Shown here piece after piece: positions 16,101-51,442 of a DNA stretch of 64,000 nt. The stretch's first letter is position 1. Each line of letters starts with the position of its first letter. The position numbers were made by a program, and so were the translations under genes. The notes below the pieces were generated by a model. The model was given only the letters and a program-made list of their open reading frames with translations, was not told where the DNA came from and did no database searches. This stretch comes from Actibacterium ureilyticum (GTDB taxonomy: Bacteria > Pseudomonadota > Alphaproteobacteria > Rhodobacterales > Rhodobacteraceae). The stretch covers positions 64,501-128,500 of the forward strand of contig NZ_NSBT01000006.1 of assembly GCF_002285435.1 (NCBI RefSeq), in the 5' to 3' direction.

Positions 16101-16127
16101 AAAAACCCCCGTTTCCGGACGGGGGTT
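16101..16127 (-). terminator. Rho-independent terminator after tetR
   Basis: Nine-base arms AACCCCCGT and ACGGGGGTT (16104-16112 and 16119-16127) enclose a TTCCGG loop. Read on the minus strand, the hairpin is followed by TTTTTCTTG and lies 20 bases beyond the tetR stop. Confidence 0.88.
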
Positions 16128-16147: not shown

Positions 16148-16756
16148 TCAGGTGCCGTAGCGGGCCATGAACATGTCGACCGCCGCTTTCAGGATGGTGT
16201 CGAGCTCTTCTTCGGAAAACTCTGTCTGGACGCAGCACATCATCATCGGAAAGATGCGCGCCTTGCACATTTCCGCAAACAGGTCCGCCGCCAGAAGCGG
16301 ATCGTCGATATCCAGCAGCCCGTCGTCATTGGCCTTGGTCAGATAGTCGCACAGATGCCGGCGTACCAGACCGGGACCGGACTCGTAAAACCGCCGCCCC
16401 AGATCCGGGAAGCGCATGGATTCCGATGCGCACATCCGCACCACGTTCTTGCCCATGTCCGAGGTCATAAACCGGATGATCTGCCGCCCCGCGCCGTAAA
16501 GCACGTCGCGCGGCTTGGCGTCGGCTGGCAGCTCGCTGACATAGTTTTCCGCCTGGCGCAGGCATTCGCATTGCGCAACCTCGACGAACAGCAGCCGCTT
16601 GTCGGGAAAATAGCTGTAAAGCGTTGCCTTGGATACGCCGGCTGTCCGGGCGATATCGTCAACGCTGGCCCCTTCGAACCCGTCCTTCATGAAGACATCG
16701 CGTGCCCCCGCAAGCACTTGTTCGAATTTACGGCCCTTTCTGATCTGATTGTTCAT
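16148..16756 (-). CDS. TetR/AcrR family transcriptional regulator
   Basis: This 202-residue repressor has the N-terminal TetR helix-turn-helix around residues 25-55 (GASVDDIARTAGVSKATLYSYFPDKR). The C-terminal ligand domain, rich in Met and Cys (PMMMCCVQTEF), resembles the AefR-like subgroup. Start: ATG with AAGGGGATCT upstream. A 47-residue secreted-peptide gene lies 80 bases upstream on the same strand, and two long palindromes stand in front of that gene, so the pair may be an autoregulated operon. No efflux pump, the most common partner of such regulators, lies next to it; the divergent gene is mbfA. Ligand and targets are unknown. Confidence 0.88.
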   Translation of the reverse strand: MNNQIRKGRKFEQVLAGARDVFMKDGFEGASVDDIARTAGVSKATLYSYFPDKRLLFVEVAQCECLRQAENYVSELPADAKPRDVLYGAGRQIIRFMTSDMGKNVVRMCASESMRFPDLGRRFYESGPGLVRRHLCDYLTKANDDGLLDIDDPLLAADLFAEMCKARIFPMMMCCVQTEFSEEELDTILKAAVDMFMARYGT

Positions 16757-16836
16757 GGAGTTGTGCAGATCCCCTTATGTGACGACTATAGACAGCTGGC
16801 TTTCCCAACGGCAAGCATCCTGCGGTGGATGGGCGC

Positions 16837-16980
16837 CTAATTGTCGGGTTTCGGCGTGCCGGGCGTCTGGACCGGCGGCACGTCGATGGTTGGCGGGAAC
16901 AGGTCCATCGTGACAAAGGCGCTGGCCTGTGCGGCGGTCAGCACGGTCAGGGCAATGGCAAGCGCGGCGACGGGTTTCAT
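16837..16980 (-). CDS. Small exported proline-rich peptide (47 residues, hypothetical)
   Basis: An ATG at 16980, five bases after a GGAG site (16988-16985), opens a 47-codon gene. Residues 1-21 form a clean Sec signal peptide (MKPVAALAIALTVL, cleavage after QASA). The predicted mature part of about 26 residues is proline-rich and slightly acidic (FPPTIDVPPVQTPGTPKPDN). It has no lipobox and no cysteine. It lies upstream of tetR in the same direction, with a 35-base palindrome directly over its 5' leader. No family is recognised. The signal peptide makes a real gene likely; function is unknown. Confidence 0.6.
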   Translation of the reverse strand: MKPVAALAIALTVLTAAQASAFVTMDLFPPTIDVPPVQTPGTPKPDN

Positions 16981-16989
16981 GTGGGATCT

Positions 16990-17024
16990 CCAAATATGAA
17001 CTATACGGTACAGTTCATATTTGG
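16990..17024. promoter_or_regulatory. Palindrome P1: candidate TetR operator before the small peptide gene
   Basis: Perfect 13-base arms, CCAAATATGAACT and its complement AGTTCATATTTGG, are separated by ATACGGTAC, which is itself nearly symmetrical. The inner 19 bases (16998-17016) form the kind of GAAC-GTAC-GTTC dyad bound by TetR/AcrR repressors. On the minus strand it contains a plausible -10 (TATAGT) and its end touches the ribosome site of the 47-residue peptide, so a bound repressor, or an RNA hairpin, would block expression. Confidence 0.65.
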
Positions 17025-17048
17025 CTGTTGGGCGGATTCCGCAAGGGC

Positions 17049-17074
17049 AAAAGTGAACAAATCGGTTCACTTTT
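17049..17074. promoter_or_regulatory. Palindrome P2: second candidate regulator site, upstream of mbfA
   Basis: Perfect 10-base arms AAAAGTGAAC and GTTCACTTTT flank AAATCG. It shares the TGAAC...GTTCA outer half-sites with P1 but with narrower spacing (6 against 11 bases between the half-sites). It ends six bases before the mbfA -35 box, a position suited to an activator or a repressor of mbfA, and stands upstream of the peptide-tetR promoter on the other strand. Confidence 0.6.
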
Positions 17075-17080
17075 CCGGGG

Positions 17081-17121
17081 TTGAGCTTTGCGGTGGTGTG
17101 ATTAAATTAGAACCATTCTAA
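17081..17121 (+). promoter_or_regulatory. mbfA promoter with overlapping Irr-type iron control element
   Basis: A promoter reads TTGAGC (17081-17086), 16-base spacer, TAAATT (17103-17108). Overlapping the -10 is a perfect dyad TTAGAA-CCA-TTCTAA (17107-17121), which matches the iron control element (ICE) bound by the alphaproteobacterial heme-sensing regulator Irr. Known biology: Irr represses mbfA under low iron and is lost when iron and heme are plentiful. The geometry seen here fits repression by promoter occlusion. Confidence 0.8.
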
Positions 17122-17135
17122 ACTAGGGGTGCCCC

Positions 17136-18113
17136 ATGATACCCGGATTCAGCCAAAGACGGCGGTTCAACGACCTGAACGAACAAGAGATACTGGCGCT
17201 CGCGATCTCGTCCGAGGAGGACGACGCCCGGATCTATCGCACCTATGCCGAACAGTTGCGCGCCGATTTCCCCGATACCGCCAAGGTGTTCGAGGATATG
17301 GCCCAGGAAGAGGACGGCCATCGCCAACGGCTGATCGACCTGCACCGCCAGCGTTTCGGCCAGACGATCCCGCTGATCCGGCGCGAGCATGTGTCGGGCT
17401 TCTATACCCGGCGCCCGGTCTGGCTGATGCAGAACCTGGGGCTGGAGCGGATCCGCGACGAGGCCGAACAGATGGAGCGCGACGCCGAACGTTTCTATGT
17501 CGCCGCCGCCAAGCGCAGTACCGATGCCGCAACCCGCAAGCTGCTGGGCGATCTGGCCGCGGCTGAGGCCGGCCACAACGACCTGGCCGCGCATCTGATT
17601 CGGGATCATCTGGACGATGACGCGCGCGAGGCCGAGGACCGTTCGGCCCATCGCCGGTTCGTTCTGACCTGGGTGCAGCCGGGGCTGGCCGGTCTGATGG
17701 ATGGATCGGTGTCGACCCTGGCGCCGATCTTTGCCACGGCCTTTGCGACACAGGATACATGGACCACATTCCTGGTCGGGCTTGCCGCGTCGGTGGGGGC
17801 CGGGATTTCCATGGGCTTTACCGAGGCCGCGTCGGATGACGGTCAGATCTCGGGGCGTGGCTCGCCGCTGAAACGTGGGATCGCATCGGGTGTCATGACG
17901 GCGGTCGGGGGGCTGGGCCATGCGCTGCCATATCTGATCCCGCATTTCTGGACCGCCACGATCATCGCCATGGTCGTCGTCTTCGTCGAGCTGTGGGCGA
18001 TTGCCTGGATCCAGAAGAAATACATGGACACGCCCTTCCTGCGCGCCGCGATGCAGGTGGTGCTGGGCGGCGCGCTGGTCTTTGCCGCGGGCGTGCTGAT
18101 CGGCAGCGGCTGA
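17136..18113 (+). CDS. mbfA: MbfA: ferritin-like/VIT1 fusion iron exporter
   Basis: This 325-residue protein fuses an N-terminal erythrin (ferritin-like di-iron) domain with a C-terminal VIT1/CCC1 membrane domain. The ferritin part has helices with E27-E28 and two ExxH motifs (E59-H62 in EEDGH and E144-H147 in EAGH), expected iron ligands. From about residue 178 the VIT1 part follows (GLAGLMDGSVSTLAPIFA, then several membrane spans ending at GVLIGSG). In rhizobia MbfA exports Fe2+ from the cytoplasm and protects against iron and peroxide stress. The Irr-type box directly upstream agrees with that role. Start: ATG after AGGGG. Confidence 0.93.
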   Translation: MIPGFSQRRRFNDLNEQEILALAISSEEDDARIYRTYAEQLRADFPDTAKVFEDMAQEEDGHRQRLIDLHRQRFGQTIPLIRREHVSGFYTRRPVWLMQNLGLERIRDEAEQMERDAERFYVAAAKRSTDAATRKLLGDLAAAEAGHNDLAAHLIRDHLDDDAREAEDRSAHRRFVLTWVQPGLAGLMDGSVSTLAPIFATAFATQDTWTTFLVGLAASVGAGISMGFTEAASDDGQISGRGSPLKRGIASGVMTAVGGLGHALPYLIPHFWTATIIAMVVVFVELWAIAWIQKKYMDTPFLRAAMQVVLGGALVFAAGVLIGSG

Positions 18114-50707: not shown

Positions 50708-51442
50708 ATGAATTTTGTGAATTCAAAACTTTGTTTAATTGCGGTTTGCGTGCTGACGGCTTGCGGCGCGCCCCAAGGCCCCGATGGTGTCTATGATCCG
50801 ATCGAGCCCGTGAACCGCGCCGTGCACGGCGTGAATAAAGGGCTGGATACGGTGATTGTAAATCCCGTGGCGCAAACTTATGGCACGGTTCTGCCGCAGC
50901 CCGCCCGTCAGGGTGTGCGGAACTTTGCCGACAATCTTGGCCTGCCCTCGGCGGTTCTGAACAATCTGCTTCAGTTCAAGCTGCAGGACGCCTTCGTCAA
51001 TTCCGCCCGTTTCCTCTTCAACAGCACCATCGGCATCGGCGGGCTGTTCGATCCCGCCAGCACGATCGGGGTCGAGGAACGCGATACGGATTTCGGCGAA
51101 ACCCTGCATATATGGGGCGTGGGCGAGGGGGCCTATCTGGAATTGCCGCTGCTGGGGCCGTCGACCAGCCGCGATGCGGTGGGCACGCTTGTCGATTTCG
51201 TGACCGACCCGCTGAATGCCGTCGGATCGCATCCCGAAGCCGATGCAATCGTGGGCGGACGGGTCGGCGCACGCGTTGGTGATCGATATACCTACTCGGA
51301 TTCCATAGATTCGGTCCTATATGAGAGTACGGACAGCTATGCCCAAAGCCGGTCGATCTATTTGCAGAATCGCCGGTTCGAGCTTGGCGGTGCCAGTGAT
51401 GATGCGTATTTTGACCCGTATGAGGACTCCTATGCAGAATAA
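50708..51442 (+). CDS. mlaA: MlaA family outer-membrane lipoprotein
   Basis: This 244-residue VacJ/MlaA protein has lipobox LTAC with C19. The family core includes YDPIEPVNRAVHGVNKGLD, VRNFADNLGLPSAVLNNLLQ and ETLHIWGVGEGAYLELPLLG followed by PSTSRD. It removes misplaced phospholipid from the outer leaflet of the outer membrane and passes it to MlaC. The next gene is mlaC, whose start overlaps by 11 bases. The inner-membrane mlaFEDB genes are not in this window. Confidence 0.93.
   Translation: MNFVNSKLCLIAVCVLTACGAPQGPDGVYDPIEPVNRAVHGVNKGLDTVIVNPVAQTYGTVLPQPARQGVRNFADNLGLPSAVLNNLLQFKLQDAFVNSARFLFNSTIGIGGLFDPASTIGVEERDTDFGETLHIWGVGEGAYLELPLLGPSTSRDAVGTLVDFVTDPLNAVGSHPEADAIVGGRVGARVGDRYTYSDSIDSVLYESTDSYAQSRSIYLQNRRFELGGASDDAYFDPYEDSYAE

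Follow-up and report, generated by a model that had tools for sequence, protein, structure and literature searches.

Predicted control of an RND efflux pump, a small exported peptide and sometimes rpoH by an AefR-like TetR repressor in Rhodobacteraceae

Comparison of genome sequences makes it quite likely that an AefR-like TetR repressor of the Rhodobacteraceae represses an RND efflux pump and, in most relatives, its own gene, often also a small exported peptide and sometimes rpoH, and that the iron exporter gene mbfA, its divergent neighbour in Actibacterium ureilyticum, is a separate unit under Irr control. This proposal is supported by (i) the identity of the operator, (ii) its presence at unlinked targets and (iii) its dependence on the repressor. 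The unlinked RND pump and rpoH targets suggest toxic-compound efflux and envelope stress as the theme instead of iron, and the exported peptide looks like part of a toxic-compound response, not of iron export. The analysis started from a 64-kb stretch of A. ureilyticum DNA (hereafter the window), and the features of the locus are listed in Table 1.

The gene layout described in the first-pass annotation, i.e. two palindromes (P1 and P2) between a peptide–tetR pair and the divergent mbfA, holds, and P2 does lie beside the likely -35 of mbfA. P1 is a 35-bp near-perfect palindrome with 17-nt arms, one mismatch and a 1-nt centre, and P2 has perfect 10-nt arms around a 6-nt centre. One P1-like palindrome is present in the window vs none in 60 dinucleotide shuffles. 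Palindromes of P2 length occur four times in the window, with a shuffle mean of 1.4; the length of P2 alone is thus unremarkable, and its significance comes from conservation across genomes. A 22-bp dyad model (AACTGAACCGATCGGTTCAGTT), trained on 47 other loci with the window excluded, ranks P2 as the best site in the whole 64 kb and P1 as second, P1 being recognized in two overlapping registers 5 bp apart. In 3000 shuffled 410-bp regions, the dyad score never exceeded 11.8 bits. Dyad-model scores against shuffles and palindrome counts in shuffles together rule out a chance origin of the palindromes. The TetR repressor encoded next to them very probably binds both P1 and P2, as the comparative evidence below indicates. 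Two dimers bind at the operator of QacR, and by analogy the overlapping dyads of P1 may also bind two dimers. Elsewhere in the window, a weak dyad site (14.3 bits) is found at position 50955. A dyad pattern with a 9-bp gap, taken from within the window, was rejected; it has the wrong spacing and misses both P1 and P2.

Table 1. Features of the tetR–mbfA region, in window coordinates
Feature	Position	Strand	Description
Terminator-like hairpin	16104..16127		Downstream of tetR; found on + strand; no more than chance expectation for the region
tetR	16148..16756	-	TetR_N + TetR_C_7 (AefR-like) repressor, 202 aa
tetR promoter-like site	16785..16814	-	TTGCCG, 18 bp, TATAGT; operator degenerate in the window
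Peptide gene	16837..16980	-	47-aa ORF; N terminus resembling a signal peptide; LPxLTFP-type core, diverged; window copy without Cys
P1	16990..17024		Predicted TetR operator, probably two overlapping dyads, between peptide start codon and peptide promoter; 22.2/21.1 bits
Candidate peptide promoter	17017..17044	-	TTGCGG (17044-17039), 16 bp, AAATAT (17022-17017); between P2 and P1; read from sequence
P2	17049..17074		Predicted TetR operator upstream of the peptide gene -35; 25.3 bits
Irr (ICE) box TTAGAACCATTCTAA	17107..17121		Before mbfA
mbfA	17136..18113	+	Iron exporter, divergent; syntenic neighbour, candidate regulon member only

We surveyed 111 tetR loci, the window included. The tetR gene is divergent from mbfA in 79 of them. 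In 48, tetR is preceded by a small ORF that encodes a signal peptide and an LPxLTFP-type core, and usually a TQGC...C tail. Dyads are present in the peptide promoters of all 48 loci (39/39 with mbfA and 9/9 without), a figure that is partly circular because the dyad model was trained on those promoters; the tests on the RND and rpoH genes given below are not circular. Control of the exported peptide by TetR, as proposed at first pass, is very probable as a prediction. In relatives, each peptide promoter carries one to three dyads, the proximal one mostly 18–48 bp from the peptide start codon, and a TTG(A/C) -35 between the distal dyad and the next dyad is kept. The overlap of a -10 element with P1, also proposed at first pass, can be seen in the window as AAATAT inside P1, but the match is weak and was missed by a consensus scan. 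Among the tetR loci without a peptide, only 3 of 63 have dyads (mbfA loci 1/40; loci with neither gene 2/23); the expected conservation of the palindromes beside orthologous tetR genes is thus found where the peptide is present but hardly at all where it is absent.

At the two dyad-bearing loci with neither peptide nor mbfA (L074 and L102), the LTFP peptide gives way, behind the same dyads, to another small exported protein of about 75–80 aa. This suggests that the slot, and not one particular peptide, is under selection. In five further loci (L276–L280), the peptide adjoins mbfA, tetR is elsewhere in the genome and the dyads are kept. A natural control is provided by a genome without a tetR match (L293 of G170), where the peptide gene adjoins mbfA and dyads are lacking. 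Taken with the independence of the dyads from mbfA (see below), their presence in the five loci and absence in the control indicate that they need the peptide and TetR, not mbfA.

Autocontrol of tetR, also part of the first-pass proposal, is supported as a prediction for most relatives: in 74 of the 111 loci, a dyad covers the -10 of the tetR promoter. In the window itself, that operator is degenerate and the dyad model scored no dyad at the tetR promoter. However, the peptide gene is separated from tetR by an 80-bp gap in which no terminator was found. Transcripts of the window tetR could start at the peptide promoter, and P1 and P2 may act on this gene by readthrough.

We then consider promoters unlinked to the tetR locus, which were missed at first pass. 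Of 46 genomes searched by pattern, 33 contain exact dyads and three contain reversed-pattern controls. Away from the tetR locus, the dyads cluster in front of two genes, an RND adaptor gene and rpoH. With the dyad model fixed, the RND adaptor dyad is present in 24 of 28 genomes with tetR and in 25 of 26 further tetR-containing genomes that lack a peptide at the tetR locus. Overall, this amounts to 49/54 genomes with tetR vs 0/16 without (Fisher 8e-12), where some adaptors of the latter group may be paralogues. As an orthology check, adaptors with a conserved TPR_21 neighbour were compared, and the dyad is present in 18/20 vs 0/9 (p 5e-6). The rpoH dyad is found in a minority of the genomes with tetR (11/28) vs none of those without (0/18; p 0.003). 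Genomes with and without tetR are interspersed on the rpoH tree, where well-supported branches force at least five changes, and therefore common descent alone does not explain the dyad pattern. These comparisons support the prediction that whether unlinked promoters carry operators of the P1/P2 family depends on the presence of TetR.

Both targets can be recognized in the window's own genome. A dyad at position 320547 of contig 18 lies 79 bp upstream of an RND adaptor there; the adaptor and an AcrB-type permease were identified, and a perfect dyad (TGAACCGCTCGGTTCA; contig 30:525384-525399, i.e. L121 1501-1516) lies ∼41 bp upstream of rpoH. The latter overlaps a likely sigma-32 promoter (CTTGAA...CCTATCT), the CTTGAA box of which resembles one dyad half-site. 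Pattern searches supplied these targets and may have passed over weaker sites. To our knowledge, a direct link from efflux to rpoH would be new.

Several single loci add observations of their own. Two tandem dyads 46 bp apart precede the RND adaptor of G279 (contig 1:744897-744958; L192). Dyads also occur before a TolC-like gene (L199, G316) and an MFS transporter gene (L145, G003), both named from sequence only and again efflux functions. Strong dyads (27–28 bits) precede a gene for a small secreted protein at L190 (G173) and L184 (G249), and this protein is a possible further regulon member; an acetolactate-synthase-like gene, likewise named from sequence, is divergent from the secreted-protein gene in G173 and probably also in G249.

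The mbfA product matches the NCBIfam FeExpMbfA equivalog (NF045676) with 578.7 bits vs a cut-off of 450. The Irr box of the window is absent from the first-pass annotation; across relatives, 64 of 79 loci have an ICE-like box no more than 90 bp from mbfA. In R. sphaeroides, Irr binds the mbfA promoter and a 5' end falls inside the box (PMC3413700). The window shares with that system the MbfA protein and an Irr box preceding its gene, and differs from it in the TetR dyads, which are independent of mbfA, a separate unit. We conclude that mbfA is a syntenic neighbour under a predicted Irr control of its own.

Other explanations of the palindromes have to be weighed against control of the peptide, pump and rpoH by TetR. 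One is that TetR also represses mbfA through P2 and that a single ligand induces both the peptide and iron export. The position of P2 beside the mbfA -35 would fit, as would the distance of the mbfA-proximal dyad centre from the mbfA start (72–98 bp in 30 of the 39 loci with peptide and mbfA) and the frequent adjacency of peptide and mbfA even where tetR is elsewhere, as at L276–L280. We nevertheless regard this as unlikely: 39 of the 40 tetR–mbfA loci without a peptide have no such dyad, the distal P2-type dyad is kept in eight of the nine peptide loci without mbfA, dyad presence is not associated with mbfA (40/79 vs 11/32, p 0.14), mbfA has its own Irr box and compactness of the divergent promoter region would be enough to place P2 near mbfA. 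The dyads follow the peptide and not mbfA, and the first-pass suggestion that iron efflux is joined to the TetR ligand finds no support; an iron link through P2 is rejected as the main function. Some influence of TetR on mbfA is possible because P2 abuts the mbfA promoter, and none of the present findings requires it.

It could also be argued that the palindromes bind another regulator and that TetR is a bystander, given that the tetR promoter of the window lacks a dyad. This appears highly unlikely, since the tetR promoter carries a dyad in 74 of 111 relatives and since the dyads at two unlinked genes are absent without tetR (0/16 and 0/18), where the tree shows several independent changes. 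Hardly any weight, finally, can be given to the idea that the 47-aa ORF is not a protein and that P1 and P2 have no role beyond that of a leader or in tetR readthrough. The window copy is indeed diverged and without Cys, and tetR could use the peptide promoter across the gap in which no terminator was found. However, the 68 homologues (42–69 aa) keep the start and the signal peptide, and 66 of them the core motif; codon differences are most frequent at third positions (116, 77 and 159 at positions 1, 2 and 3); some copies are far from tetR; and two loci replace the peptide by another exported small protein. This comparative evidence indicates that the window ORF is probably translated, and control of a true exported peptide by TetR is the reading followed below.

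At least two Cys are present in 52 of the 68 homologues. With a profile built without it, the window peptide is the best of 1070 window ORFs, though weakly (E 0.011), and it is best described as a putative diverged family member that has no Cys. Searches of Pfam and NCBIfam gave no convincing family match for the peptide; a known family is ruled out there, and the weak single-member matches are noise. The AlphaFold model of the window peptide has one N-terminal helix (residues 3–20, the signal peptide) and no secondary structure in the remainder, and is uninformative (pTM 0.27).

The TetR protein contains TetR_N and TetR_C_7 domains (Pfam E 1.6e-15 and 8.7e-36), and orthologues at E<=1e-30 are present in 277 of 395 Rhodobacteraceae genomes (∼70% of the sample). 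Its best solved relative is 6g87 (E 1.6e-30), which we take to be FrrA, and its similarity to the solved AefR (PDB 3cdl) is distant (E 4e-8). It can be classed from these matches as an AefR-like repressor, related to repressors of RND efflux pumps that have hydrophobic compounds as ligands. Adjacency of such AefR/FrrA-like regulators to their pump is usual but not defining. We know of no peptide or rpoH target described for FrrA, and our literature search found no paper on the regulon of the Rhodobacteraceae TetR and met no described function. The AefR of P. fluorescens represses the MexEF-OprN pump and senses flavonoids (PMC11915855). The present regulator resembles AefR of Pseudomonas (PDB 3cdl; PMC11915855) in its TetR_N and TetR_C_7 domains and in its predicted repression of an RND pump; unlike AefR, it adjoins a small exported peptide and mbfA, and the pump is unlinked. 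FrrA of Bradyrhizobium, which adjoins FreCAB, is genistein-responsive according to a secondary account (PMC4070704, citing Wenzel 2012). As far as that account goes, the two are alike as alphaproteobacterial TetR proteins with control (here predicted) of an RND efflux system, and differ in that the FrrA gene adjoins its own pump, whereas here tetR is on contig 43 and the pump on contig 18.

Based on these comparisons, we propose that the TetR operator is the dyad TGAACCGNNCGGTTCA and its variants. In the window's own genome, TetR would bind P1 and P2 around the peptide promoter, and also the unlinked sites upstream of the RND adaptor–permease operon and of rpoH, presumably repressing these target promoters. 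A ligand entering the cell, by analogy with AefR and FrrA a hydrophobic compound, would release TetR, and the pump, the peptide and (in this genome) the heat-shock sigma factor RpoH would be induced at the same time. The peptide would enter the periplasm by export and probably be cleaved to about 26–40 residues.

The same dyad at peptide and pump promoters suggests the co-regulation that is expected of RND accessory proteins, and no convincing homology of the peptide to a known accessory protein of the AcrZ or CusF type was found in Pfam and NCBIfam. In E. coli, the small proteins AcrZ and CusF cooperate with RND pumps (PMC4462101). The peptide is like them in being a small protein predicted to be co-regulated or to work with an efflux system. 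AcrZ acts in the inner membrane, and the Cus copper pump has CusF as its small partner; the peptide differs from both in having a cleavable-looking signal peptide, an LPxLTFP core and usually two Cys. By analogy, our guess is that the peptide is an accessory of the efflux response. More specifically, and only tentatively, the LPxLTFP peptides (usually with two Cys) could be a controlled partner of RND efflux in Rhodobacteraceae that, inside the periplasm or outside the cell, modulates the pump, scavenges the toxic compound or serves as a signal, with the same repressor tying the response to RpoH in some lineages.

In brief, a regulon comprising an operator sequence, a pump and further targets can now be proposed for the TetR of ∼70% of the sampled Rhodobacteraceae, and a family of small exported peptides that is predicted to be co-controlled with multidrug efflux is brought to light.
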